Positions 13,432 to 62,300 of a DNA stretch of 64,000 nucleotides are shown piece by piece. The position numbers and the translations under genes were made by a program. The notes beneath the pieces are model-generated. The model did no database searches. It was not told where the DNA came from and was given only the letters and a program-made list of their open reading frames with translations. The DNA comes from Bolinopsis microptera (Eukaryota; Ctenophora; Tentaculata; Lobata; Bolinopsidae). The stretch covers positions 8,758,675 to 8,822,674 of the forward strand of contig NC_087078.1 of assembly GCF_026151205.1 (NCBI RefSeq), given 5' to 3'. Numbering within the stretch: the stretch's first letter is position 1; each line of letters begins with the position of its first letter.

Positions 13432-13607
13432 AGTTATTTAGAATATATATTCGCGTACAACGTGATATCTTTATCAGTGCAGTGTGTACAACACCAACTA
13501 CACCGATCAATTGCCAATCTGCGAAACATTTCATTATTATTATCACTTCGAGATGGCCAGGCCTACTCTCATGCTGTCTATATGTGATGATTAATTCTGA
13601 AAAACTA

Positions 13608-13679
13608 GGGACAACTGGGGAATGATCCCAGAACCTCGAGATTTCGCGTCTCTTGCTCTACCAATTGAGCTACTGACCC
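13608..13679 (-). tRNA. tRNA-like gene, inverted copy
   Basis: This is the single minus-strand copy in the left arm, sequence-identical to the direct copies in the tRNA-like core. The A box, T-stem and T5 terminator (running leftwards from 13607) are preserved. Confidence 0.6.
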
Positions 13680-13938
13680 TGATTCTCAGAGCGAAATCAC
13701 CACTCATATACAGCACAATTTCATGCTTTGTGTGGAATATCATTTATCAGTTATTTAGAATATATATTCGCATTTATCCACACTATATTTACATTACACG
13801 TACAACGTGATATCGTTATCAGTGCAGTGTGTACAACACCAACTACACCGATCAATTGCCAATCTGCGAAACATTTAATTATTATTATCACTTCGAGATG
13901 GCCAGGCCTACTCTCATGCTGTTTCGCTCTGAGAATCA

Positions 13939-14011
13939 GGGTCAGTAGCTCAATTGGTAGAGCAAGAGACGCGAAATCTCGAGGTTCTGGGATCATTCCC
14001 CAGTTGTCCCT
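13939..14011 (+). tRNA. tRNA-like gene, representative unit (anticodon position CGA)
   Basis: A 73-nt cloverleaf can be drawn: 7-bp acceptor stem (GGGTCAG with TTGTCCC, one T-T mismatch), perfect D stem GCTC/GAGC with an AATTGGTA loop, anticodon stem with four pairs, five-base variable loop, and perfect T stem CTGGG/CCCAG. The A box TAGCTCAATTGG is canonical, and TAGTTTTTC just downstream supplies a pol III terminator. Three normally invariant positions are wrong: position 33 is G instead of T (loop CGCGAAA), T54 is A and A58 is T. The nominal anticodon CGA would read serine UCG, yet eukaryotic tRNA-Ser has a long variable arm, absent here. It is therefore more likely a tRNA-derived pol III unit (SINE-like head) or pseudo-tRNA than a decoding tRNA. 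Confidence 0.6.
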
Positions 14012-17000
14012 AGTTTTTCAGAATTAATCATCACATATAGACAGCATGAGAGTAGGCCTGGCCATCTCGAAGTGATAACAATAATTAAATGTTTCGCAGA
14101 TTGGCAATTGATCGGTGTAGTTGGTGTTGTACACACTGCACTGATAACAATATCACGTTGTACGTGTAATGTAAATATAGTGTGGATAAATGCGAATATA
14201 TATTCTAAATAACTGATAAATGATATTCCACACAAAGCATGAAATTGTGCTGTATATGAGTGGTGATTTCGCTCTGAGAATCAGGGTCAGTAGCTCAATT
14301 GGTAGAGCAAGAGACGCGAAATCTCGAGGTTCTGGGATCATTCCCCAGTTGTCCCTAGTTTTTCAGAATTAATCATCACATATAGACAGCATGAGAGTAG
14401 GCCTGGCCATCTCGAAGTGATAATAATAATTAAATGTTTCGCAGATTGGCAATTGATCGGTGTAGTTGGTGTTGTACACACTGCACTGATAACGATATCA
14501 CGTTGTACGTGTAATGTAAATATAGTGTGGATAAATGCGAATATATATTCTAAATAACTGATAAATGATATTCCATACAAAGCATGAAATTGTGCTGTAT
14601 ATGAGTGGTGATTTCGCTCTGAGAATCAGGGTCAGTAGCTCAATTGGTAGAGCAAGAGACGCGAAATCTCGAGGTTCTGGGATCATTCCCCAGTTGTCCC
14701 TAGTTTTTCAGAATTAATCATCACATATAGACAGCATGAGAGTAGGCCTGGCCATCTCGAAGTGATAATAATAATTAAATGTTTCGCAGATTGGCAATTG
14801 ATCGGTGTAGTTGGTGTTGTACACACTGCACTGATAACGATATCACGTTGTACGTGTAATGTAAATATAGTGTGGATAAATGCGAATATATATTCTAAAT
14901 AACTGATAAATGATATTCCACACAAAGCATGAAATTGTGCTGTATATGAGTGGTGATTTCGCTCTGAGAATCAGGGTCAGTAGCTCAATTGGTAGAGCAA
15001 GAGACGCGAAATCTCGAGGTTCTGGGATCATTCCCCAGTTGTCCCTAGTTTTTCAGAATTAATCATCACATATAGACAGCATGAGAGTAGGCCTGGCCAT
15101 CTCGAAGTGATAATAATAATTAAATGTTTCGCAGATTGGCAATTGATCGGTGTAGTTGGTGTTGTACACACTGCACTGATAACGATATCACGTTGTACGT
15201 GTAATGTAAATATAGTGTGGATAAATGCGAATATATATTCTAAATAACTGATAAATGATATTCCACACAAAGCATGAAATTGTGCTGTATATGAGTGGTG
15301 ATTTCGCTCTGAGAATCAGGGTCAGTAGCTCAATTGGTAGAGCAAGAGACGCGAAATCTCGAGGTTCTGGGATCATTCCCCAGTTGTCCCTAGTTTTTCA
15401 GAATTAATCATCACATATAGACAGCATGAGAGTAGGCCTGGCCATCTCGAAGTGATAATAATAATTAAATGTTTCGCAGATTGGCAATTGATCGGTGTAG
15501 TTGGTGTTGTACACACTGCACTGATAACGATATCACGTTGTACGTGTAATGTAAATATAGTGTGGATAAATGCGAATATATATTCTAAATAACTGATAAA
15601 TGATATTCCACACAAAGCATGAAATTGTGCTGTATATGAGTGGTGATTTCGCTCTGAGAATCAGGGTCAGTAGCTCAATTGGTAGAGCAAGAGACGCGAA
15701 ATCTCGAGGTTCTGGGATCATTCCCCAGTTGTCCCTAGTTTTTCAGAATTAATCATCACATATAGACAGCATGAGAGTAGGCCTGGCCATCTCGAAGTGA
15801 TAATAATAATTAAATGTTTCGCAGATTGGCAATTGATCGGTGTAGTTGGTGTTGTACACACTGCACTGATAACGATATCACGTTGTACGTGTAATGTAAA
15901 TATAGTGTGGATAAATGCGAATATATATTCTAAATAACTGATAAATGATATTCCACACAAAGCATGAAATTGTGCTGTATATGAGTGGTGATTTCGCTCT
16001 GAGAATCAGGGTCAGTAGCTCAATTGGTAGAGCAAGAGACGCGAAATCTCGAGGTTCTGGGATCATTCCCCAGTTGTCCCTAGTTTTTCAGAATTAATCA
16101 TCACATATAGACAGCATGAGAGTAGGCCTGGCCATCTCGAAGTGATAATAATAATTAAATGTTTCGCAGATTGGCAATTGATCGGTGTAGTTGGTGTTGT
16201 ACACACTGCACTGATAACGATATCACGTTGTACGTGTAATGTAAATATAGTGTGGATAAATGCGAATATATATTCTAAATAACTGATAAATGATATTCCA
16301 CACAAAGCATGAAATTGTGCTGTATATGAGTGGTGATTTCGCTCTGAGAATCAGGGTCAGTAGCTCAATTGGTAGAGCAAGAGACGCGAAATCTCGAGGT
16401 TCTGGGATCATTCCCCAGTTGTCCCTAGTTTTTCAGAATTAATCATCACATATAGACAGCATGAGAGTAGGCCTGGCCATCTCGAAGTGATAATAATAAT
16501 TAAATGTTTCGCAGATTGGCAATTGATCGGTGTAGTTGGTGTTGTACACACTGCACTGATAACGATATCACGTTGTACGTGTAATGTAAATATAGTGTGG
16601 ATAAATGCGAATATATATTCTAAATAACTGATAAATGATATTCCACACAAAGCATGAAATTGTGCTGTATATGAGTGGTGATTTCGCTCTGAGAATCAGG
16701 GTCAGTAGCTCAATTGGTAGAGCAAGAGACGCGAAATCTCGAGGTTCTGGGATCATTCCCCAGTTGTCCCTAGTTTTTCAGAATTAATCATCACATATAG
16801 ACAGCATGAGAGTAGGCCTGGCCATCTCGAAGTGATAATAATAATTAAATGTTTCGCAGATTGGCAATTGATCGGTGTAGTTGGTGTTGTACACACTGCA
16901 CTGATAACGATATCACGTTGTACGTGTAATGTAAATATAGTGTGGATAAATGCGAATATATATTCTAAATAACTGATAAATGATATTCCACACAAAGCAT

Positions 17001-18780
17001 GAAATTGTGCTGTATATGAGTGGTGATTTCGCTCTGAGAATCAGGGTCAGTAGCTCAATTGGTAGAGCAAGAGACGCGAAATCTCGAGGTTCTGGGATCA
17101 TTCCCCAGTTGTCCCTAGTTTTTCAGAATTAATCATCACATATAGACAGCATGAGAGTAGGCCTGGCCATCTCGAAGTGATAATAATAGTTAAGTTTGAC
17201 GTTCACGCTTGAGTTTAAGGGGATGATAATTAATCACTCTACACTCGACTGTCACGTGACTTTTTTAACCCGTTCTCTAGCTGGTTCTGAACGACTTTTC
17301 GAAACCCTAACCCTCTAATCTGGGCTCTCTCTGGCGGGACATAGATCTATATAGGGGGTACCCGGGGTACGAGTTAACAAACAGTGTTCGTGTCCTTCCA
17401 CAACCCCCTATTACCTGTGTTTCTGTCGGGGGAGCCTAATTCATCCGTTAGAATCGCAGAGTTAGCGGAGCTCAGGATATCTCGCGACGTATGCTGCATG
17501 AACGGTGCAAGACTTGCGCCGTTTGTTTCAGCATCCAGTTGCGAGTGCTTGCCCATCGAAAACATGATTAGTGATTGTGGATTTTATTGATATTACTGAT
17601 TATCCATCATATTCAGTATTAATATTATCCATTATTTATTTATTGACATCCTTCAGTCTCCAAAACGAGGTGTGAAGGTAAATTAACTTTGAGCCTTGTT
17701 TTGGCGACAGCTTCATCGATGGGCAAGTAGGTATTTGTTTTTTAGCAGTGTTGAACATTGAAACAATTATAAAATGTTTATTTTTATCTTATATAACGTA
17801 CAATATGAATGATATATGCTATAGTGACGTAACATATATAGTGCAAAGAATTAGTAACTTGCTAGATGTGATTTAAGTGCAATTGTAAATTGCAAAATGT
17901 TAACGTCGATTATTACTAACATTTATCTGAATTTAATACAAGTACATGTCACATATAAATTGGGTAGCTGAATGAAACTCGTGCCTCAGAATTTTCCGTT
18001 ATTAGCATTGCAGTGTCCACAACCTGTACTGCGTTAACAACCGAAATTTTCCCAATATGCAATAATTATTTTGCTTCTAAAATTCTTTGATAATTAATAA
18101 TATATCGTGACATGTAATTGTAAGATAACAAACCTCGCGCGCGCGGCGCTTCCATCTGCACCTGAGAATCCCTCAGCAATGTGTGGCTGTCTGCGCGGCG
18201 GGCTGTGTATTGTGTATATAGCTGAATTTAAATTTAGATTTATTTGTAAATGTATAATAATATTAAATATGTATTGATTGTTTTGTGGTAAATAAAAATT
18301 TTGTTTTACTAAAAAATTTTGTTTTACTAATCCTAACCCTAACCCAATCCTTAACAAAAACATTGCTTTAACCAGAGCCCTCTCGCTTGCAGTAGCGCGC
18401 GACCGCCGGAACAAGCGCGTCACGCAGTACGCGTAGGCATATGGCTATGTGAAACAAAAATATATACTGAAACTCTAACCATAACGAGAAATTTGGCTAA
18501 CTTCCTTACACGGCCGGTCATATCACGTGATCGATACAGTTTTTCGCCGATATCTCGTCAGGAGAGCATTTTAACCATATGTTATGGGGGTGATTCGGAA
18601 TCAGCGTCCGAAAATACATCGATTGAAGTTGGTTACAACCATCGGGGGCCGGCCATTTTAGAATAATCTTGAAGATCGACTGTAGAGTGATTAAGCACGC
18701 TCGAGTTTAAGGGTGAAGGGGTGATACTTTTAAAATAATTGTTTCAAATTAATATTAGTATAGGGCCGTACGTCAAACAC

Positions 18781-46702: not shown

Positions 46703-49700
46703 TCAATAGAATTCCAGAATCTTCTGATCCCCCTCTACAACTTCTCCGACGCTAGCCCAAATCTTCTTAATCTTACCGCTTTTCGGAGCCTGCAAAGATT
46801 AAAGAAATCAGATTATTCTATCCAAATCTAGACGAACAGTAAACCGAGTTGTTATTGTCCACTACTTTGGTGCCAGGTTTGTGCCAGCAAGTCATGACTC
46901 TAGTCAGTGACCTTTGGCGAGATCTGCAGACATTTGTTAGTCCTCTTGCAGAAAACGAAATCGCCATGTAGTAAACATTTGGTGGGTTATCTGTGCCGAA
47001 AATAATCGGAAACCAGTAAATAGTAATTTACTATGATAACCGACAACCAGTAAGTGACTGTAATCAATACTGTAATAGTTAATAATTGTATTACATACTG
47101 GACCACGTACTGGAAAAACGGGCAAATAACAGATTCAGAATTGAACAATTCAGAGGATGAATGGGGGTGGGGGGATTTGTAAGTTAATCAATCTAACAAT
47201 GAAGTTATTAACCTTGAGAGAGTTGTTCATCTTCATAGCCACCACTACAGCTACCTCAGTTCCCTCCAGTACCTCATCACCCTCCTCTACGCTAATGGAG
47301 GAGAGACTACCTGATAAAGGAGGTGTGGTTAGAATCACTATAAAGGTGGGATTATTGTTACGTGCCTCAAAATCCCCCTCATAGTATGATACAAAACAGT
47401 AATTGAGGGGAGGGTTTATCGCCGTTTACTTTTTTAAACTTCTCACAATTCTTGCCATTCTTGTCATTAATCTATGTTGACAGTTCCAGAAATAGATGAC
47501 TCATTGTGATGACCCCTATAATTGTTACAGAGTAAACAGTAACGACCCTGGTAACCCAGGTTACTTACCAGGTTACCCTGGTTACTTTCCAGGTTACCCT
47601 GGTTACTTACCAGGTTACCCTGGTTACTTACCAGGTAACCCTGGTTACTTACCAGGTAACCCTGGTTACTTACCAGGTTACCCTGGTTACTTACCAGGTT
47701 ACCCTGGTTACTTACCAGGCATGGGTGAGATGAGGAGGTTGGAAGTGTCCTCCTTTACCTTGACAGGCATTGAATCCATGAAGCGTTGTTGAAGAGGTGT
47801 TAGTACTGTGATCTGGCGCTTACAACACCGGTATCTTAGTGTGTGTGTTACTCCTAGTTGGAAGTAGTGTTATTACGGGCAACATTTTATGATCTAATAA
47901 TATCTCAATAGGCTAATCTAGGGTCTAAGAATGTCTCGATAAGGTGATCTAAGGATGAGATTATAGGTAGGTGACCTAAGAATACCGTGAAGCTTCAGCA
48001 AGTACGAGCGTGACTTGAAGAACCCCGAATCGATGATTACTGACAAATTAAATCTGATTTCATACTCAACAATAATTCCTATAAGATTAACAAATATATT
48101 AATATGGTTCATCACTTCCGGACGTTCCGATCTGTAACAAAAATACTTGGCGTGTCTGAATTAACTATTATATGCGTTGGATGTTTATAATTGCAATGGA
48201 AACGGAATCGAGCTCAAAAAGCCTCAAATGGCGGATTACAGCATAAAAGTAAAAGCAATGTTCAAATCGTTACCAGAAAGTTCATCTTATCAGCAAAGCG
48301 GCAGATAAGGATTAAACGATTATTGTTAAATATTGTTACAAACCGTCAAATTGAAGATGTTGCAGGGCAACAGTGTTGGCAGAGTTCAGCTTGAATTCTT
48401 GTAGAGCACCAAATACTCCGCCTAACGAGGGTTTAGTAATTAGAACCATCAAGATCGATATTTCCCCAATCAAACAACGAATGAGTTTCAAAAATTCCAA
48501 CAAGGTCTTTATAACATTGGTAGAATTATTTAGAACCTCCGGATTCTAATTATTCAGCTTATTATACACTTTTCGATAAGTTTCTTATTTAGTGCTCGCC
48601 TCGCTTGTTACACGAGAACACTGCTTACTGGGTAACTTTGTGTGTAATTTTACAAGATTTCCCGGGTTCTAGAAGCAACAGAGAAAAGGTTAGTTTGTGG
48701 AAATAAGACACGTACAATTGTACGTGTCTTACTTAAGAGCTTAAGTAATCGGAGACATTGATTGGTGGATAGAAAAACTGCTGAAGTGACTGATTTAGTC
48801 AAGTAGGCAGTTACTTGCTAGTTATTTCATAGTGAAGGAACTTAAATAGATTTAATTGAAAACGTAAGCCGATTTTGAGGATGTAGTGCCGATCTGAATA
48901 TCCCCTCACTATGAATATTATTTTTGGTAAAACTAACCGGAGGGGTTAACAGTGACAGTTGTGTCCTCAAAGGTAACAGTGTAATCTCCTTTCTGTACAT
49001 TAACAGTAACAGGAACTTTATCTTCGTCACAACTTATTATGTACTCAAACCTACCCTGATAAAAAGAGAGTAAGACAAGAGTTACCATGGTTACTACAGT
49101 TACCATGGTTACCATGGTTACTACAGTTACCATGGTTGCCATGGTTACTACAGTATACTACTCGGACTACTGTTGTAAGTAAAGAGTTAATATCCGCACA
49201 AAAACTTGATATTGACGGAAAAAGCGTTTATATGGTTTGTTTTACGTCAACATGATGCATTAAAGACGTGATTCAATAGGAAAATTCTCGTGAGGAGTTG
49301 AGGAACATTTGTTTACTTTAATAGTAAGTACCCGCTCAGCAGAGGAGAGAGGTGATGCACATTTGTTTATTTTTAAGGGTAAGTACCCGCTCAGCAGAGA
49401 AATGCACATTTTGTATTATGGAACGCTTGTAACAAGGTCAAAAGGAAATCGCAGCACGTGCAGAATCGCGATTTTTCCAGTTCTCCGTGACAAATTGCGC
49501 ATTTTTCTTTAAATCCGAGGACCAAATTTACGCATTCTTCTTTAAATCTGAGGGCCAAATATCACGTTCTTTACAACTATAAAGGCCCCTTCCGGCCATT
49601 GCCACTGCGAATTTAACCTAAAGTCCTGAAATCGAAAAAAAAAAACATAATACAAAATGTGCATCACCTCTCTCCTCTGCTGAGCGGGTACTTACTATTA

Positions 49701-52700
49701 AAATAAACAATTAATGTACCTCACCTCCCCACGAGAATCCACATATATACAATCTTTCAAAATAAACTCACATCAGTGACAGTGCGGTTCATCTTCATGT
49801 GGTGTAGGACAGAAAGAGAGGGAATCAGTTCACTCTTCTGCTCAGGAGTGAGGTCCCCTCCACTGTAGCCCTGGGGGTACTCCTCGTCCAGAAACTTGGT
49901 GGAGATGTTGCCTGATTTGAACCTTGCGGGAGATGCTATAAGTTAGATACAGTTGACAGTCAGCGGTGGGATAAATAGACTGTAGTTGGCAAAGATATTT
50001 AGAAACAGAAAAACGTAGACGTTTGTTTACATTTACTAAAAGAACTTTTAGTAAGCTGTAGTAAGAAATGATGGAGGTCGGACAGAATGGACTGTCTCCG
50101 ACCTGTTGAAATAGTATCTTGTGTGGTACATACACATTATTGACATGAACATGTAACTAGTATAGGTAGAACCTAGTGTATTTGGAAAACGAAGGTATAT
50201 TATTATAAGACATAAGGAATTTTCTTGTGTTTGACACTAAATACACATGAAATGAAAAAGTCTAGAACTTCCTAAACTAACCTCTCATTTCCCAGTATCT
50301 CCCGTAAAAGTGGAGTATTATGAGTGATGCCGTCAATAACAAACTAAACTAACCTCTCATTTCCCAGTATCTCCCGTAAAAGTGGAGTATTATGAGTGAT
50401 GCCGTCAATAACAAACTAAACTAACCTCTCATTTCCCAGTATCTCCCGTAAAAGTGGAGTGTTATGAGTGATGCCGTCAATAACAAACTAAACTAACCTC
50501 TCATTTCCCAGTATCTCCCGTAAAAGAGGAGTGTTATGAGTGTTGCCGTCAATAACAAACTAAACTAACCTCTCATTTCCCAGTATCTCCCGTAAAAGTG
50601 GAGTATTATGAGTGATGCCGTCAATAACAAACTAAACTAACCTCTCATTTCCCAGTATCTCCCGTAAAAGTGGAGTATTATGAGTGATGCCGTCAATAAC
50701 AAACTAAACTAACCTCTCATTTCCCAGTATCTCCCGTAAAAGTGGAGTATTATGAGTGATGCCGTCAATAACATACTAAACTAACCTCTCATTTCCCAGT
50801 ATCTCCCGTAAAAGTGGAGTATTATGAGTGATGCCGTCAATAACAAACTAAACTAACCTCTCATTTCCCAGTATCTCCCGTAAAAGTGGAGTATTATGAG
50901 TGATGCCGTCAATAACAAACTAAACTAACCTCTCATTTCCCAGTATCTCCCGTAAAAGAGGAGTGTTATGAGTGATGCCGTCAATAACAAACTAAACTAA
51001 CCTCTCATTTCCCAGTATCTCCCGTAAAAGTGGAGTATTATGAGTGATGCCGTCAATAACAAACAAAACTAACCTCTCATTTCCCAGTATCTCCCGTAAA
51101 AGTGGAGTATTATGAGTGATGCCGTCAATAACAAACTAAACTAACCTCTCATTTCCCAGTATCTCCCGTAAAAGTGGAGTATTATGAGTGATGCCGTCAA
51201 TAACAAACTAAACTAACCTCTCATTTCCCAGTATCTCCCGTAAAAGTGGAGTGTTATGAGTGATGCCGTCAATAACAAACTAAACTAACCTCTCATTTCC
51301 CAGTATCTCCCGTAAAAGTGGAGTATTATGAGTGATGCTGTCAATAACATACTAAACTAACCTCTCATTTCCCAGTATCTCCCGTAAAAGTGGAGTATTA
51401 TGAGTGATGCCGTCAATAACAAACTAAACTAACCTCTCATTTCCCAGTATCTCCCGTAAAAGAGGAGTGTTATGAGTGATGCCGTCAATAACAAACTAAA
51501 CTAACCTCTCATTTCCCAGTATCTCCCGTAAAAGAGGAGTGTTATGAGTGATGCCGTCAATAACAAACTAAACTAACCTCTCATTTCCCAGTATCTCCCG
51601 TAAAAGAGGAGTGTTATGAGTGATGCCGTCAATAACAAACTAAACTAACCTCTCATTTCCCAGTATCTCCCGTAAAAGTGGAGTGTTATGAGTGTTGCCG
51701 TCAATAACAAACTAAACTAACCTCTCATTTCCCAGTATCTCCCGTAAAAGAGGAGTGTTATGAGTGATGCCGTCAATAACAAACTAAACTAACCTCTCAT
51801 TTCCCAGTATCTCCCGTAAAAGAGGAGTGTTATGAGTGATGCCGTCAATAACAAACTAAACTAACCTCTCATTTCCCAGTATCTCCCGTAAAAGAGGAGT
51901 GTTATGAGTGATGCCGTCAATAACAAACTAAACTAACCTCTCATTTCCCAGTATCTCACGTAAAAGTGGAGTGTTATGAGTGATGCCGTCAATAACAAAC
52001 TAAACTAACCTCTCATTTCCCAGTATCTCCCGTAAAAGAGGAGTGTTATGAGTGATGCCGTCAATAACAAACTAAACTAACCTCTCATTTCCCAGTATCT
52101 CCCGTAAAAGTGGAGTGTTATGAGTGATGCCGTCAATAACAAACTAAACTAACCTCTCATTTCCCAGTATCTCCCGTAAAAGTGGAGTATTATGAGTGAT
52201 GCCGTCAATAACAAACTAAACTAACCTCTCATTTCCCAGTATCTCCCGTAAAAGTGGAGTGTTATGAGTGATGCCGTCAATAACAAACTAAACTAACCTC
52301 TCATTTCCCAGTATCTCCCGTAAAAGTGGAGTATTATGAGTGATGCCGTCAATAACAAACTAAACTAACCTCTCATTTCCCAGTATCTCCCGTAAAAGTG
52401 GAGTGTTATGAGTGATGCCGTCAATAACAAACTAAACTAACCTCTCATTTCCCAGTATCTCCCGTAAAAGTGGAGTATTATGAGTGATGCCGTCAATAAC
52501 AAACTAAACTAACCTCTCATTTCCCAGTATCTCCCGTAAAAGTGGAGTGTTATGAGTGATTCCGTCAATAACAAACTAAACTAACCTCTCATTTCCCAGT
52601 ATCTCCCGTAAAAGTGGAGTATTATGAGTGATGCCGTCAATAACATACTAAACTAACCTCTCATTTCCCAGTATCTCCCGTAAAAGTGGAGTGTTATGAG

Positions 52701-55700
52701 TGATGCCGTCAATAACAAACTAAACTAACCTCTCATTTCCCAGTATCTCCCGTAAAAGTGGAGTGTTATGAGTGATGCCGTCAATAACAAACTAAACTAA
52801 CCTCTCATTTCCCAGTATCTCCCGTAAAAGTGGAGTATTATGAGTGATGCCGTCAATAACATACTAAACTAACCTCTCATTTCCCAGTATCTCCCGTAAA
52901 AGTGGAGTATTATGAGTGATGCCGTCAATAACAAACTAAACTAACCTCTCATTTCCCAGTATCTCCCGTAAAAGTGAAGTGTTATGAGTGATGCCGTCAA
53001 TAACAAACTAAACTAACCTCTCATTTCCCAGTATCTCCCGTAAAAGTGGAGTATTATGAGTGATGCCGTCAATAACAAACTAAACTAACCTCTCATTTCC
53101 CAGTATCTCACGTAAAAGTGGAGTGTTATGAGTGATGCCGTCAATAACAAACTAAACTAACCTCTCATTTCCCAGTATCTCACGTAAAAGTGGAGTGTTA
53201 TGAGTGATGCCGTCAATAACAAACTAAACTAACCTCTCATTTCCCAGTATCTCCCGTAAAAGAGGAGTGTTATGAGTGATGCCGTCAATAACAAACTAAA
53301 CTAACCTCTCATTTCCCAGTATCTCCCGTAAAAGTGGAGTATTATGAGTGATGCCGTCAATAACAAACTAAACTAACCTCTCATTTCCCAGTATCTCCCG
53401 TAAAAGAGGAGTGTTATGAGTGATGCCGTCAATAACAAACTAAACTAACCTCTCATTTCCCAGTATCTCCCGTAAAAGTGGAGTATTATGAGTGATGCCG
53501 TCAATAACATACTAAACTAACCTCTCATTTCCCAGTATCTCCCGTAAAAGTGGAGTATTATGAGTGATGCCGTCAATAACATACTAAACTAACCTCTCAT
53601 TTCCCAGTATCTCCCGTAAAAGTGGAGTATTATGAGTGATGCCGTCAATAACAAACTAAACTAACCTCTCATTTCCCAGTATCTCACGTAAAAGTGGAGT
53701 ATTATGAGTGATGCTGTCAATAACATACTAAACTAACCTCTCATTTCCCAGTATCTCCCGTAAAAGTGGAGTATTATGAGTGATGCCGTCAATAACAAAC
53801 TAAACTAACCTCTCATTTCCCAGTATCTCACGTAAAAGTGGAGTATTATGAGTGATGCTGTCAATAACATACTAAACTAACCTCTCATTTCCCAGTATCT
53901 CCCGTAAAAGTGGAGTATTATGAGTGTTGCCGTCAATAACAAACTAAACTAACCTCTCATTTCCCAGTATCTCCCGTAAAAGTGGAGTGTTATGAGTGAT
54001 GCCGTCAATAACATACTCATCCAGAGCTTTCTCCATGTGATCTATAGCTTCCTGCCTTGTTGGAGCGTATGTTACTAGTTTAGATATCATGGGATCGTAG
54101 TGGATACTAATGCTGCTACCCTCTACTATACCACTATCACATCGTACTCCTGGAGAATGGAGGGAATCAGGAATCAATTATCTTCAATCTGACAATCATC
54201 ATCATCTTCGCTGTAAAACTAACACTTGTAGTTGTTGAACAACTGCTAAATTCGCGGAGAACTAAACCTGAAATACACTAACCTAGTTGGGAGTAACCTA
54301 GTAACCAGTAATACACTAACCTAGTAACCTAGTAACCAGTAATACACTAACCTAGTAACCTAGTAACCTAGTAACCAGTAATACACTAACCTAGTAACCT
54401 AGTAACCTAGTAACCAGTAATACACTAACCTAGTAACCTAGTAATCTAGTAACCAGTAATACACTAACCTAGTAACCTAGTAACCTAGTAACCTAGTAAC
54501 CAGTAATACACTAACCTAGTAACCTAGTAACCTAGTAACCTAGTAACCTAGTAACCTAGTAACCTAGTAACCTAGTAACCTAGTAACCAGTAATACACTA
54601 ACCTAGTAACCTAGTAACCTAGTAACCAGTATACACTAACCTAGTAACCTAGTAACCTAGTAATCTAGTAACCAGTAATACACTAACCTAGTTCTGCAGT
54701 GTTGTGAGAGACGCCTGGTTCTGTGTACTTGGTGAGTAGACCTACACTGGGCAGATATCTGACTGGGTCCTCTGCGTACACTCTACACTCCATAGCCCAT
54801 CCTGAAATTAGCAGTTAGCAGGAATACTCTCAAATAGCTCCTTAGTAACCTAGTAACCTAGTCACCTAGTAACCTAGTAACCTAGTAACCTAGTAACCAG
54901 TAATACACTCTACACTTCATGGCCCATCCTGAAATTAACAGTTAGCATGCATACTGTGCAGTACTTGGGAGCAGGTCTCGAGCAGGTCTTCGGCGTATTT
55001 TCACGTTTATTGGACGATTTGGACGTTTCAGGAAAATTTTCGGGCTTCAGTAGTAAGCTGATAGTGACTGATTTGCGCCAAACACAGCAGGGGTGATAAG
55101 TGTAAGACACGTACCTTTGATTCCGATATCAGATTGGGTATAGCTGAGAGGGTAGCCGGCCGCTACGCGTAACATCTCATCCACTATATCCACCTGAAAT
55201 AATATGTGTTAGTATCAAGTATTTAGCATATCCCCCGCTATTTCATTTCACTTTTCCCTACTGCACACATAGACTAGAACTACAAATGTAAGATAAAGGA
55301 ATGAAGCAAGCAATGGCACTAGGTTACTAGGTTACAGGTTACTACCATTAGTAACCAGTGCTGAAGGTACTTACCCCAGTTATACACTCCGTGATAGGGT
55401 GCTCAACTTGCAGTCTCGTGTTCATCTCCAGGAAGTAGAAGTTCATTTGGGTGTCCACTAGGAACTCTACCGTGCCCGCACTCTGGTAATAAACAGTGTT
55501 TAAAGGAACATGAAGAAATTCCCAAAAAAAGTGTGTTTCTAGAGTAAAACGCGCAGTTTTGCTAGTACCTCAGTTAAGTTTTTCAAAATTGTCCCACATT
55601 CAAACGACGATTTCGCGCCCTCCTAAGATGGCGCGGGGCCCTTCGTTACGCCACTGTGAACTACATTGAAATCTATCAAAGAGTATCCTGAATATACAAA

Positions 55701-58700
55701 TTTGCTGACTGCAGTGGGTCAGGGTAAACAATTATAAAAGTTTGGTTAAAATACTAAACTAACCTGATAATTTACAGCTTGAGACAGCAGCACCGCTTGT
55801 TCTCCCATAGCTTTTCTCACTTCAGGAGTGATGAAGGGACTTGGCGCTTCCTCAACTACCTGGATAAGATGGTCAGTAAGATACCGGACTGAGGTCATAA
55901 CTGCAAGAGCAGTCGATAAACTGATTGATTGATATGAATATAATAATAACTAAGGAACTATAGTAACTATAGTAACTATCGTAACTATAGTAACTATAGT
56001 AACTATAGAGCTATAGTAACTATAGTAATTATAGTAACTATAGTAATTATAGTAACTTCTAAGGAACGTACTAACCTTCTGATTCCTCCTCTGAATACTA
56101 CACTCCCTTTCATTCAAGTATATACAGTTTCCCTGGCTATCTGCCAAGATTTGTATCTCTACGTGACGAGGGTTATCGATAAACCTGTACGTCATCAATC
56201 AACAAACTCAAGAACTTATAAAACTAATACAGAATATTTATCCGATGAAAATTATTAAGTTATAAGAATTATTAAATCTGAAGCCTAGCGAGTAAGATAA
56301 TACACCATTGGCATTAAGTTATCATAAAATTAATGAACACACACCGTTCAATGAGAAGTCTATCATCTCCAAAACTAGCTGCGGCCTCCTCTGAGCTCAG
56401 TTTAAATCCCTCCCTCACTTCAGCGTCATTCCACGCTACTCTCATACCTGGTGGTGAGAATGTAACTGTTATTTACTGTTGGGGTGTCCAACCCTAAAAA
56501 ACCCATCCTCGAAATGGAAATTTCAGGTAAAGTTGGGTTTTTTTGGGTATTTTTGGGTTTTTAAAAGAAAAAAGGTTAGAATTGAGGGGCCAGTATAGGT
56601 CAGTGAACTCTTACTTGATTAGAAAACATTGAAAAGAGTACCTAGGGGTTTTGTTTTCAAAGTAGTCGAATTAGACAAAAAGCTCAAAAAAAGGAGAGAG
56701 AAAAAAAAAACCCATTCCCAAAATGGAAATTTAAGGTAAAATGGGTTTTTTGGGGTTGGACACCGCCCACACTTTCTTGGTAGCCAAGGTGTGAAATAGT
56801 GAAAGGGTCGAGTGTAAAGTTTAAATGGACCCGTCTATATTTGCTTAATTAGTCGTACATGAATAGTATAATTTATCAAATTTATGCAGATATAATATTT
56901 AATTTATATCCCCGAAAAAGATTTGGACCGCCCTATGGATCACCTTATCTTATTCCGATAAGATTATATAGTTTTATTCGAGAAATAATTATATAACAGC
57001 CCGGAAGCCCCCAGGGTCGGACGCCTGCCGGCACTACTTGACTCGCCCACTCTCGTGATGTGACACGTGGGCTTGCCCGCGAGACTGCGTGAACAGGGTA
57101 AAGGGGTCCCCTTTCCCGCCTAAAACTGTTCTTTAAATCAAAACGGTATAAGACTAAAAGTACTATATACTTCTGAGGGTTTTTTGGGGATATATTTATA
57201 AATTACGCTGTAAACTGTGCTTACCTTTTCCACCACCTCCGGCCGATGCCTTTATCATTACAGGATATCTGAAATGTTATGATATTACCTAGGGCATGTC
57301 GCGTCGTGATATCGTGGATCAAAGTAGTTCAAATACTGTATTACCGTAGATGGTTTTCTGCCCAGTAGAGTTTACTGCTAGTACAGTAGTCAGCGCAGTC
57401 CAGATAAAAATAAACTATGGTCAACCACAGCGCCAGATAATTGTGAATTAACAGGTAACTATGGTAACTAGCTGCTCCAATAACAGGAAACTGTAAACTA
57501 ACTAACCCGACTTGATTAGCAATAGTGACCGCAGCCACATCGTCCTCCACAACACCATCATAACCAGGTATACAGTTCACACCTGCAGCACGCGCTATTA
57601 TCTTGGACTCTATCTTATCACCCATAGCCTGACAGGGTAGTTTTATCAGAGAAACTCATGGGGGGGGGGGGGGGGGGGGCCGGGGGGCCGGGGGGGGGGG
57701 GGTTAATATAACAAATTGAGTAGTACTAGGTCATTGTTACTTGTTAGTTAACAGTTAACAGTTAAATATTCTATCAATATTCCAACTATTTTAGTTAATG
57801 AAAGTCTCCTAAACTACTGTACCTGTATAGCCTTTTCTTTAGGCCCAATGAAGGCTATACCCCTCTCCTCAAGGAGTTGAGCGAACTTACAGTTCTCACT
57901 GAGGAACCCGTACCCTGGGTGTACTGCTTGAGATCCTGTACTTACTGCCGCGTTCACTATCGCCTGATAGTATACAGTTTAGATAACAGTCACCACTTCA
58001 GTGATTATATACATTATAGGGGGAGGGCTGGATCATGATTCCCCCGTAATATGGTTAAGTAAAATGAATATACTAAACGATAAGTTTTGGAGAACTTCAT
58101 TTTAAGTGATCTATCTTCTGCAAAATAATGAATTATAATGACTTTGTTGCAGCTAAAAGATCCCAATAAAATAAATTATGTTGAGCCATCATCTTACCTC
58201 CATGTCCAGGTAACTCTGGTTGCTAGGAGCCGGTCCCACACAAATAGCCTCATCAGCCATCCGCACGTGCAGCGCGCGGTCGTCCACGTCACTGTGCACC
58301 GCGACTGTCTTGATGCCGAGCGAGCGGCACGTCTTCATTACACGGCATGCTATCTCCCCTCTGTTCGCTATCAGTACCTGCCAGGAGACCACTCGTGTTA
58401 ATTGTAGACCAGGATACTGGTTGGGGTGAGCTTTATTTGGTTTGACACGTGGTACTGATGTATGGAGTTGGGTGGTCCCTGCTGGAAACTGACTGATCAA
58501 TGGTTGTTTCCCTTCAGAAAGCTCACCTCCCCCAGTATCTTTGTCTGTAGAAATACGTTCCGAAGAATGTGCTATTTTCAGCATTTTTTTAATTAATGGA
58601 ATAGAGTTTTAAAATACTATCTCACTTTATCAAAAGGTTTGGTGACGGTGGCAGTTTGAAGAGTTCTTTTAAACTGTGCGAGGAGACCGGTGCGTGACAT
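46703..58700 (-). CDS. PCCA: Propionyl-CoA carboxylase alpha subunit, mitochondrial
   Basis: PCCA carboxylates biotin with ATP and bicarbonate; with the beta subunit it makes methylmalonyl-CoA from propionyl-CoA in the mitochondrial matrix. Exons (complement): 58626-58700, 58198-58377, 57823-57963, 57507-57628, 57225-57268, 56345-56447, 56076-56184, 55764-55859, 55375-55482, 55115-55193, 54688-54801, 53954-54149, 49772-49922, 48938-49055, one unresolved exon, 47716-47812, 47213-47310, 46703-46789. Exon 1 encodes a basic mitochondrial presequence. Landmarks: [35 protein letters not shown]-grasp loop; [29 protein letters not shown], as in PCCA rather than MCCC1; SPMPG; biotinyl-lysine in AMKM (codon 47231-47233). 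All other junctions keep phase. The phase gap between 48938 and 47812 requires one exon of length 3n+2, corresponding to the middle of the BT domain. Its introns are laden with repeats. Confidence 0.93.
47231..47233 (-). other. PCCA: Biotin attachment lysine codon (AMKM)
   Basis: In the penultimate exon, AMKMNNS follows [20 protein letters not shown]. The lysine of AMKM is the residue biotinylated by holocarboxylase synthetase across biotin carboxyl carrier domains. Confidence 0.95.
47545..47716. repeat. 21-bp repeat of the PCCA intron-16 splice donor
   Basis: On the minus strand the authentic border CCTG/GTAAGTAACC (47716/47715) is followed by about seven more 21-bp units, each ending CCTGGTAAGTAACC. 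One, near 47580, is mutated to GGAAAG and loses its GT. The plus-strand frame with GYPGYLP repeats is an artefact of this array. Confidence 0.9.
47813..48937 (-). other. PCCA intronic segment that should contain the unresolved exon
   Basis: Phase requires an exon of length 3n+2 here. Two weak candidates were seen: one after a TTAATCTTATAG acceptor (about 48077, reading FNLSVIIDS) and one after a TTGCTTCTAG acceptor (about 48672, reading [11 protein letters not shown]). Neither is convincing. The segment also contains the palindromes at 48704-48748. Confidence 0.4.
48704..48748. repeat. Two adjacent perfect palindromes
   Basis: TAAGACACGTACAA/TTGTACGTGTCTTA (28 bp, 48704-48731) abuts TTACTTAAGAGCTTAAGTAA. 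They lie in a PCCA intron. Confidence 0.8.
49078..49150. repeat. ACCATGGTTACTACAGTT minisatellite
   Basis: Imperfect 9/18-bp units directly precede the acceptor of PCCA exon 48938-49055, on its upstream (intron) side. Confidence 0.85.
49306..49712. mobile_element. Inverted-repeat element (MITE-like) in PCCA intron 13
   Basis: The left arm contains TAGTAAGTACCCGCTCAGCA and GAGAGAGGTGATGCACAT. It is found inverted at 49650-49705, and a partial direct copy of the arm occurs at 49345-49410. The interior has no open frame. Confidence 0.75.
50281..53952. repeat. 72-bp tandem array: 51 extra copies of PCCA exon-12 tail plus splice donor
   Basis: Units start every 72 bp from 50281 (CCTCTCATTTCCCAGTATCT) and run seamlessly into the authentic exon end at 53954. 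Read on the minus strand, each unit holds the last 59 nt of exon 12 (coding VIDGITHN and [11 protein letters not shown]), the donor GAGAG/GTTAGT and seven further intronic bases. Units differ at a few recurring positions (A/T, A/G, C/A), arranged in mixed order, so the array evolved by repeated amplification. The period is 24 codons and each unit has an in-frame TAG just after the donor. Confidence 0.97.
54264..54688. repeat. CTAGTAAC minisatellite carrying copies of the PCCA intron-11 donor
   Basis: The authentic border CTAG/GTTAGTGTATTACTGG (54688/54687, minus strand) is repeated about nine more times down to 54264, each copy separated by one to ten 8-bp TTACTAGG units. Confidence 0.92.
54840..54945. 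repeat. Duplicated PCCA exon-11 acceptor fused to the CTAGTAAC repeat
   Basis: TTAATTTCAG/GATGGGCCATGAAGTG (minus strand, about 54938-54910) copies the acceptor and first bases of exon 11 (54801). After about 30 exonic bases it passes into the CTAGTAAC minisatellite. It is a truncated exon duplicate. Confidence 0.85.
55517..55656 (-). mobile_element. Partial copy of the CAGTGGCGTAACG hAT MITE
   Basis: On the minus strand the sequence from 55656 reads CAGTGGCGTAACGAAGGGCC. It follows the left part of the 37656-37942 element for about 140 bp with scattered differences, then stops; the other end is missing. It lies in a PCCA intron. Confidence 0.8.
55958..56056. repeat. (TATAGTAAC)n 9-bp repeat
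   Basis: About ten imperfect 9-bp units lie 20 bp downstream of the donor of PCCA exon 56076-56184. Confidence 0.85.
56483..56764. mobile_element. MITE with GGTGTCCAACCC termini
   Basis: GGTGTCCAACCCTAAAAAAC at the left is matched by the inverted end finishing at 56764 (TTTTTTGGGGTTGGACACC). A related half copy occurs at about 61868-62012 in an uL2m intron, sharing GGTTTTGTTTTCAA and GTAGTCGAATTAGA. No transposase. Confidence 0.75.
57657..57703. repeat. Poly-G tract with CC interruptions
   Basis: About 40 bases of almost pure G in a PCCA intron; length is likely unreliable in the assembly. Confidence 0.8.
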
Positions 58701-59350
58701 GGCTGACTAAAGAGCTAGAGAAGAAGTTTAGTTATTTACTAAAGAATTTGTTAATTATTTACTAAAGAATATGTTAAGTTATTTACTAAAGAATTTGTTC
58801 AGTTATTAAGCTGTCTCCGATTTGTTTAAACACAAGTCTTTTTAATTTAATTTAAATTCTTGTATAAATACCTAGTTTAGTTAGTGGATTTGTCAATTTA
58901 GTTAGTTGTTGCAATAATAATTTGTCACTCTAACGGTTAACCCAGGATTTTAGTAATTTGTAAAGGTAGCTATGGGCTACATCAGGCTGAAATTAGAATT
59001 CAGACTCTAGGAAATGAAATTAACTTCTCGATCAAGTAAAATATTTGGAAAATATTAGAAAATTACAAAACTTTATCATTTTATGGGTTGTTGGAAAAGG
59101 GGTTTCTTGGCAAACTAAAGAACATTAGCAGATTTTATAACATGAATAATAATTTAAGTCTAAAATAAATAGGTCCCTCTCGCAGTAATTTGCAATAAAA
59201 GTCAACACACAATATCCAGGCCACGGCTAAAATACACACAATATTCACCTTTAAACAATCAAATTAACTTAATATTATAGGAACAGTAGGGACTAGGGAG
59301 GTTCATACATGAACAGGTACTACTAATTAAACTAAGTTAATACTGCAGTT

Positions 59351-62300
59351 TTATCTCTTGTTAGCAATACCCTTTCTTACTTTCCAGTATCTCCACCTCT
59401 GTCTCTCAGCCCACATTACTTCAGTCTTCTGCCCGGAGAAGTCCTCGTAGGAACACTGGTATAACTTCTCTCTGTAGGGAGGTTCATAGTAAAACTAAAG
59501 GTTTAAACTAATTACAACACTACAAATCTATTACATTAATTGAGCTATGTAAGAAGTAACTGTAATTGTAACGTATTGTCCATGACAAGGGCATGAGCCG
59601 AAACGTCGACAACTATTTGTTTGAAAAACTGAATGGAGACTCACTTTGTCCCACAAAATCAATTAAAACTAAAGGTTGATAAAAATTGGTGAAAAATATG
59701 GGCGTGGCCGGAGAGAATGTTTCCGGTTTCAGTTGAAGCTTTAAAATTTGTTATTTAGTGGTATTTTCTCCAGCTCCTCAAGGGGATCCAACCCAAAACT
59801 CAGTGCTTGTTTGGCCTTATAAGTTTACCATTACTTAGAAAATGTAGGTTATTATTTAGAAACATAATATCATATTTTGGGAATATGTTATATTAGATCA
59901 TTTATTTTGGAGTAGATAATCCCGAATATATTGATTCCACCGAATTAACGTTTCGGGAACAAAATGTCATTGTCCTGCCTGATTGTATTTGTAAACATGA
60001 ATTTATTGTACTGGTGTTATGTACGTGGGGGGAAAAGTAACGTTCATTTTATAGCAACAATTGGTTTATTTATACCATCGTTATTATCATTTATTAAACT
60101 CTAGATTTATAAACTTACTCTCTCGGTTCAAACTTGCGCTTATCAATGTGCTTCAGAATCTCCGGATCTTTTTGCTTTAGTTTCCGGATGAAATACTCCG
60201 GTTTCCGGTCTCCGAAGTGGTACCTGAACCTCTCAAACGTTTCAGGTACAAAGTGTTCTTGTCCCGCCTGATAGAGGAATTTGTTATCAGAACAAACTTA
60301 ACGGGTGATAATCGTAAAATATTCGTTTTAAATATACAAGACCGTCGACGAGTCCAACGGCGCGCGTCTTGGTAGGTTATAAACCTACAAGAACAAACGT
60401 GATAAACGAGGATTAAAGTAGCGTTAATTATAGAAAAATTGGTTTATTTGAACCATCGTTATTATTATATATTTTTTATTAAGTTAGGCGGCAACATGAT
60501 AATGACCTCCGCAAATAAGTATTCTATGAAATGCTGAAATGCCGGAAATATGTGGCTAATTAGCGGTTTTATCTGTCAACAAATCAAATAAAAACACAAA
60601 AAATAAAACCGCGCATATTTTAATAAAAACATCACCCAAGGTCTGTGGTCTAACTCTAAGTAGCGTAAACACTGCTAAGTAATATTAGAAATACTAGTAA
60701 TATTAGTGGTATTATTACCCAAGGTCTGTCGTCTAAGTAGCGTAAACACCGCTTAGCCCACTTCTGATCCATTCTATGTCGCAATCTCCTCTTCCTCCAG
60801 TTCCAACATCTCTGACGGTCCGCTCTTGGTTTTATACCCTTCGCTCTTGAAGCCTGTAAACGTGAACACGTGAGCTGGTTCCAAACTCTTGCCAGACAAG
60901 ATTTCACAAAAAAATTCAGCAGCGATAAATGTGCGATCATTTCTAATTTAGACTACTTCAAAATTTCGTAATTTCCGACTTGAACAAAGTATTCAGTTAG
61001 TTTGTTAACTCCAGACAAACCTTCCATGATCCCAGTATCTCAACAGCTCTGGCAGTCTGCTTCACTCTGCCTAGAGTCGCGACACAATCACTGTCAACCC
61101 ACTGTGATACACCTGTAAAACTTTAAAGCTTAACTGAATGATAACTTAATCTGGATTTTCGCCAACCACTTTTCCGAGACATCCGGCACAAATGCGAAAA
61201 TTTGCACAAGATGAGAGGGGGGAGGCTAGCCGCATAACCTCCCTCCGCATAACCTCCCTCCCCATAACATCCCTCCGCATAACCTCCCTCCGCTAACACA
61301 TGTAATAGTCGTCTACACTAAGATACGGGCCAACTTATTGTTTCCTTTCAGCTGATAATAATAATATTTCAGGCCACGTCTAATTGCAAACCTGAGGGAT
61401 GTTGGATAAGGGTCTTGTCTCGAGCTAGAGTGTGTTTCATTATTTCACAGAATGTCCCAGAGTTCATGGCAAAGCTGGAGCCTTTTCCAGGCTCTGGCTC
61501 CACTGAGTTGACTTTTATTCCTGCAACCATTACATTTACTAGATTAACGGGATTGAGAAATAATAACAACAACCAAGCGATAGTCTTGCTTAAACCCGGG
61601 GGGATCAGGCACCAAGTGCCGTACGTGACGTCGACTAAGTGCAATTTTGGAATTTTTCAAAAGACCCACCCACCCCCTTCGCGGTACTAACTGTTTTTTC
61701 GGATAATAATTAAGACACCCACCCTTTTTGCTGGCTTTTGCGGTACTAACTGTTGAGAAATCACGGTACTAACCGTGTCTTGGTATATAAAATAAGATAC
61801 CCACCCGTAAATTGTTTTAAACAGTTCATTAAACATTGGTAAATGGGCAAATTATACCCACTATTTAGTAGGGGTTTTGTTTTCAATGTAGTCGAATTAG
61901 ATAAAAAGCTACAACAAAATAAAAAAAAACCCAAAAAAAAACTTTAAAAAACCTCAAAACCCATTCCCAAAATTGAAATTTAAGGTTAAATGGTTTTTTG
62001 GGGTTGGACACCCCCTTTAGTACCATGTACTAACTGTTTTTCTGGGAAATGAGCAGCAGACCCACCACCTAGCAGACCCACCACCTAGTACAAAAGTAAT
62101 AACTGCGTTTTGGAAGAAAATATGACCCACCCCCCAACGTCACGTACGATTCTGACCTTAAGATCCCCCCCCCCGCTTAAACTTGAACAGACGAAAACTT
62201 CGTGTTCGTCAGAAATGTTATTTACAATAATAGCTTTGCCATGAATAATAGCTTTGCCATGAACAAATATCTTACGTTTCATTTATAAATGAAACGTAAA

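Follow-up and report, generated by a model that had tools for sequence, protein, structure and literature searches.

Introduction

Variable number of tandem repeats (VNTR) arrays built on an exon and its donor (5' splice site) have been described in human genes, and an array of this anatomy is reported here from intron 12 of PCCA, the gene for the alpha chain of propionyl-CoA carboxylase, in the ctenophore Bolinopsis microptera. It lies in a stretch of 64,000 nucleotides (contig NC_087078.1 of assembly GCF_026151205.1, forward-strand positions 8,758,675 to 8,822,674), called the window below. In the human cystathionine beta-synthase gene (CBS), the VNTR c.1444_1467+7(16_21) is listed with a 31-bp unit and 16-21 copies (PMC2630376); its reports place it at the exon 13/intron 13 boundary and associate more repeats with lower CBS activity (PMC5188458, PMC1395315). 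By its name, the unit consists of the last 24 nt of the exon and 7 intronic nt, and therefore each unit carries the donor of the exon. In human ABCA7, the VNTR of intron 18 is described as a 25-bp unit repeated from 12 to about 427 times; according to the same account, a transcript retaining one unit acquires a stop and is subject to nonsense-mediated mRNA decay (NMD), and exon 19 skipping rises with VNTR length whereas unit retention does not (PMC5954066). Splice signals are also duplicated in intron gain by tandem duplication, outlined as the duplication of exonic sequence with a splice signal and the splicing out of the extra copies; in fission yeasts, a 24-bp exonic segment with AGGT was duplicated multiple times (PMC4974935, PMC2891723).

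In the window, the tail of PCCA exon 12 and its donor are followed by 51 tandem copies of themselves, and the array has the anatomy of a CBS/ABCA7-type VNTR across an exon-intron boundary. To our knowledge, VNTRs of this type are known only from human genes, and our search, which was confined to ctenophore-focused literature, listed no report of such an array. According to an earlier note on the window, no comparable described system was known to its author; as their sources describe them, the 31-bp VNTR of CBS and the 25-bp VNTR of ABCA7 are of the same kind. The reading favoured here, with a probability of about 0.75, is a nearly neutral, length-variable minisatellite (VNTR) straddling the exon-intron boundary, born by tandem duplication and having little or no function.

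Results

The PCCA gene and the junction of exons 12 and 13

The assignment of the gene to PCCA was based on alignment to a structure entry, the best solved-structure match being 7ybu (propionyl-CoA carboxylase alpha chain, mitochondrial; E 3.5e-211), which we take to be human PCCA. Exons 1-14 have GT-AG borders and form a single open frame of 545 codons with a leader-like N-terminus, and the biotin motif AMKM is carried by a downstream exon at 47213-47310. A search with Pfam PCC_BT gave no match across the genome (264.65 Mb in 232 contigs). The features concerned, in window positions, are as follows.

47213 to 58700, minus strand: PCCA gene, bounded by its start codon (58700) and the biotin-motif exon; unsettled are exon 15 and where the exon that ends at 47717 begins
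53954 to 54149, minus strand: PCCA exon 12, 196 nt, its tail being the first unit, with donor GAGAG/GTTAGT
49923 to 53953, minus strand: intron 12, 4031 nt, of which the array makes up 3672 nt
50282 to 53953, minus strand: the 72-bp unit in 51 intronic copies, as counted from one donor to the next; 52 units with the exon 12 tail
49772 to 49922, minus strand: PCCA exon 13, acceptor CCCGCAAG/GTTC, its junction with exon 12 gap-free against human PCCA

The protein join of exons 12 and 13 aligns without gaps to ...INSRFVKGDISTKFL of 7ybu. This alignment supports the end of exon 12 at GAGAG/GTTAGT, and because the join is gap-free, functional mRNA should use the first donor. Both the PCCA identity and the exon 12 end given in the earlier note are thus upheld by protein homology.

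Structure of the array

The array was delimited by Tandem Repeats Finder at window positions 50272-54017, with a period of 72 bp, 52.0 copies, 97% matches and 0% indels, in agreement with the 51 gap-free copies beside exon 12 that had been noted before; the exact count of 51 is uncertain, since it is based on one assembled copy. The sequence GAGAG/GTTAGT was intact in all 52 units (the exon 12 tail and the 51 intronic copies), as expected from the earlier description of 52 near-identical intact donors, and a 14-mer around the exon 12 donor, allowing at most two mismatches, occurred 51 times in intron 12 and nowhere else in the PCCA gene.

Beyond the last copy, intron 12 reads GTTAGTTTAGGAAG, and ahead of the first unit, exon 12 reads GATGAGTATG. 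From both array ends the seeding joint can be read as GTTAGTTTAG joined to TATGTTATTG, the ends having AG in common. As the sequence at the two ends shows this joint, the original seed unit would comprise 62 nt of exon 12, starting TATG, and 10 nt of intron 12 (GTTAGTTTAG). The unit looks like 59 + 13 nt because column 71 is T in 42 of the first 50 intronic units, the exon's TAT being kept in the other 8; the unit had been given as 59 nt of exon 12 plus the donor, of which the exon tail and donor stand, while the array ends replace the 59 + 13 split by 62 + 10.

Among these 50 units, 9 of the 72 columns were variable, none of them within the donor. Chance alone leaves the donor free of variable columns in 20-28% of cases, and therefore its invariance is no evidence for selection. 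Compared with shuffles, units showed raised likeness at lag two (p 0.001) and at lag four (p 0.005), as expected if short blocks slip.

Comparison with the described systems

Like the CBS VNTR, as described, the PCCA array is an apparently length-variable tandem repeat of an exon tail plus donor in the gene of a metabolic enzyme; the CBS array differs in its unit (31 against 72 bp), in its exonic part (24 against 62 nt), in its fewer copies and in being human. The ABCA7 array shares with that of PCCA that it begins with the donor GT of an exon, in this case exon 18, but its unit as described starts at the intron, so that the exon tail is not repeated, and its effects on splicing have been measured (PMC5954066). 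In contrast to the published cases of intron gain by duplication, the donor and exon tail of PCCA were copied beside an apparently existing intron with its own acceptor. The array was also considered as an intron gained wholly within duplicated exonic sequence, and it does not fit this reading: the exon 13 acceptor lies about 360 nt beyond the array end, and no copy of the sequence of this acceptor was found within intron 12.

Other gene copies and the assembly

The genome search returned two further places, on the same contig as the window array. The first is a second PCCA copy (C7, plus strand), which differs at 17 of 1636 coding nt and in 6 amino acids, is free of stops throughout exons 1-14 and is 93-97% identical wherever the region aligns. 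Its homology to the window is limited to about window positions 48087-59852. This copy, an allele or a recent duplicate, has 13 units in all, every donor intact, compared with 52 in the window copy.

The other place was rejected as a gene with a diverged array (84%), being an error-laden mirror of the second copy, at 89% identity with 494 gap openings along 10 kb. It adjoins the second copy in mirror orientation, in a palindromic arrangement, and at the three variable columns its units agree one by one, in order, with those of the second copy (13 of 13). We therefore read it as probable unpolished read sequence placed by the assembler, an assembly fault that would add a false third gene; it behaves much like one long read through the 13-unit array. 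The palindromic stretch, one error-laden arm of which mirrors the second PCCA copy, extends over C7:9344500-9383042.

Both places bear on the possibility that most of the 51 copies are an assembly error. The published Bolinopsis microptera assembly, presumably the one analysed here, has 13 chromosome-scale scaffolds with a haploid size of about 254 Mb and was made with wtdbg from PacBio data (PMC10232365); nearly all matches listed in our searches lie on contigs C1-C13. Among solved structures, a glutamate-receptor reading frame of the genome has its best match in 'ML032222a iGluR' (4yki), a protein of the ctenophore Mnemiopsis leidyi, with 407 bits against 243 for the next family and with aligned residues that are clearly similar without being identical; a second receptor frame matched vertebrate-type kainate receptors best, so that this sign of a ctenophore comes from one gene. 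The unpolished palindromic stretch with its mirrored gene copy shows that errors do occur in the assembly. However, the second gene copy has 13 units of its own whose order is repeated by the noisy third, and the array of the window has no indels and carries variants of its own, so that an artefact is very improbable. As the second copy has 13 units and the third repeats their order, the array is real and appears to be length-variable.

Donor-based arrays in other introns and in another gene

Two more arrays in the same gene are built on donors.

54292 to 54678, minus strand: array of the exon 11 donor in intron 11; exon 11 ends at 54688
47550 to 47719, minus strand: 21-bp array of the donor CCTG/GTAAGT of the exon ending at 47717; 7 intact copies including the real donor, 1 broken

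Intron 11 is filled with its own donor, CTAG/GTTAGT occurring 10 times and CTAG/GTTACT 22 times, the real donor counted. The second gene copy, with a shorter intron 11 (241 nt, versus 538 nt in the window copy), has them 4 and 3 times, respectively. In intron 10, at window positions 54890-54935 (minus strand), a partial copy of the exon 11 acceptor and first exonic bases (one acceptor copy counted) is followed by intron-11-like GTTACTAG repeats.

Arrays of the PCCA gene that contain a donor or lie at most 10 nt from one numbered 3 of 10, against 0.26 expected (p 0.0018; p 0.021 without the intron 12 array), in a test that covers one gene with hand-merged arrays and a 10-nt limit chosen after reading the gene, one array lying exactly at that limit and a fourth at 19 nt. 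The placement of arrays at PCCA donors is thus suggestive only.

An array of the same anatomy was found on C1, in an LMF1-like gene (Pfam LMF1_C, E 1.7e-28), where a 61-nt exon tail and 4 intronic nt form 31 units joined at the repeated GTAA, that is, 30 extra copies of the exon tail plus donor; the exon end was judged here from frame and donor, not from a full gene model. Its donors read GTAAGT in 26 units, ATAAGT in 3, TTAAGT in 1 and GTAAGG in 1, and thus the donor GT was lost in 4 of the 31 units. As this gene was met by chance beside a different motif, such arrays may not be rare. Besides the donor array downstream, a 14-bp array (CAGTCTGAACTTAC) lies just upstream of the acceptor of the LMF1-like exon (C1:1289300-1291500).

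Predicted consequences of using a later donor

Splicing from a later donor would lengthen exon 12 by one or more full units of 72 nt and, as the earlier note had predicted, an in-frame TAG is met at once (...LGNERLV, then stop) in the frames computed for 1, 2, 5 and 51 extra units. Isoforms with such an early stop would be substrates of NMD, and later donors perhaps leak some of them. As transcripts from later donors are expected to undergo NMD, long arrays may slightly lower the enzyme output.

A stronger version of this effect would be a length-dependent burden, in which the array measurably lowers PCCA through later donors or exon 13 skipping and the long version is a weak allele. The stop in every extended isoform tested speaks for it, and so do, within what the sources describe, the lower CBS activity reported with more repeats (PMC5188458) and the exon 19 skipping that grows with the ABCA7 VNTR (PMC5954066). 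Nothing of the sort reported for CBS activity is known for this PCCA gene, the array is present in both gene copies, each with an intact frame in exons 1-14, and the one-unit retention described for ABCA7 is independent of VNTR size; a burden of this kind, an option of the earlier note that stands beside the neutral one, is considered unlikely.

The same stop, lying immediately past the first donor, together with the intact donors of all 52 units, would also suit a regulatory device based on poison isoforms, as the earlier note had suggested; in such a device, certain tissues or states would deliberately draw on later donors and thereby tune PCCA. No evidence for such a device was found in the analyses reported here, and it is judged highly unlikely: one extra donor would suffice, the donor invariance is not significant, the gene copies differ in unit number, and in the similar array of the LMF1-like gene the donors have decayed.

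Donors and arrays across the genome

Motif-spacing counts, all of which are inflated by long arrays, gave 4229 matches for three GGTAAGT motifs separated by 5-35 nt against 26 for the backward pattern, 1632 against 1498 for the non-donor control GGTCAGT, and 7748 against 1461 for GGTTAGT at 45-75 nt. Among the matches listed, GGTCAGT formed 15 separate arrays, by our own count, and GGTAAGT 6; scaled to all matches, these give approximately equal numbers of arrays for the two motifs. The upstream sides of the six GGTAAGT clusters were inspected, and none provably begins directly at an exon end. Two near-copies (C1:7500-9700 and C1:912300-914400) hold a 39-40-bp GGTAAGT array, which in the first begins 61 nt after a possible exon end; their reading frame, which gave no significant Pfam or NCBIfam match, presumably resembles ABHD17, a likeness that no family match confirmed. 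The LMF1-like exon adjoins a further one of the six clusters, on the opposite strand. In 30 kinase loci (112,971 bases), GGTAAGT was counted 13 times and GGTCAGT 12 times; they represent donors poorly, because 27 of the 30 kinase matches cover at least 250 of the 263 model positions in one frame.

Array units were also scored as donors in the window plus the kinase loci, which together span 176,971 bases and hold 64 merged arrays with a period of at least 12. A score of at least 9 was reached by 7 of the 64, whereas 1.8 would be expected for random segments and reversed units gave 2, but 3 of these 7 are the PCCA arrays whose donors trained the matrix, which leaves a weak excess (4 of 61); a paired Wilcoxon test on the donor scores of these array units was not significant (p 0.15). 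Of 31 loci (the 30 kinase loci and one carboxylase locus), 2 had direct repeats that extend to the end of a long open reading frame (at least 150 codons), one pair in each.

With these tests failed or weak, donor-seeded arrays are not established as a genome-wide rule. The idea that splice donors of this ctenophore have given rise to minisatellites in their own introns again and again, in several introns of a single gene as well as in genes unrelated to it, is tentative, and we hold it to be doubtful.

Two further arrays were recorded. At C1:934855-935516, an array of about 31 bp, with a unit starting GTTAGT and ending TTTATCAG, resembles a minute intron repeated head to tail, its acceptor-like and donor-like ends touching. 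At window positions 13922-17193 lies a 345-bp tandem array of 9.5 copies, every one bearing a tRNA that ARAGORN identified as Ser(CGA); with bacterial settings, 10 such calls were made on the plus strand and 1 on the minus strand, at 13606-13680, and at a length of 75 nt the Ser assignment may be wrong.

Discussion

The intron 12 array is best explained as a nearly neutral minisatellite, an option that the earlier note had included and that is favoured by the decaying donors of the LMF1-like array and by the CBS and ABCA7 precedents. Its origin would be a tandem duplication that took in the final 62 nt of exon 12 together with the 10 nt that open intron 12, was joined at a common AG and would have created a second donor. 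Slippage or unequal exchange may then have multiplied the unit, to 13 units in one gene copy and 52 in the other. Transcripts spliced at the first, exon-proximal donor would still yield normal PCCA, and the occasional use of a later donor would add a multiple of 72 nt opening with the in-frame TAG, a transcript that NMD would probably remove.

Several observations weigh against this explanation. The two further donor arrays in the same gene are more than expected for a randomly placed minisatellite, and the undecayed state of 52 of 52 PCCA donors is also expected under selection for donors, the probability by chance being 20-28%. Moreover, at the other 8 of the 10 lags the likeness of units was not significant against shuffles, and no excess of long duplicated blocks was detected in the array (p 0.89).

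A fully neutral array would be an ordinary minisatellite, unusual in its location. What stands out is the number of donors, the long exonic part of the unit and the recurrence of such arrays in one genome. The CBS/ABCA7 type of VNTR is thereby extended to an early-branching animal, in which it has seemingly arisen more than once. If donors did repeatedly seed arrays in their own introns, introns throughout the lineage would have grown by this route; in the introns so produced, the first donor would have to prevail over dozens of identical competitors, which would make them natural tests of position over sequence in donor choice.

The 52 donors of this gene share a near-identical context of 59 exonic and at least 10 intronic nt, with nine variable columns, and differ mainly in their distance from the exon 12 acceptor, which makes the locus a natural experiment on how a 5' splice site is chosen. 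Near-exclusive use of the first donor would mean that position (exon length or transcription order), and not sequence, decides.

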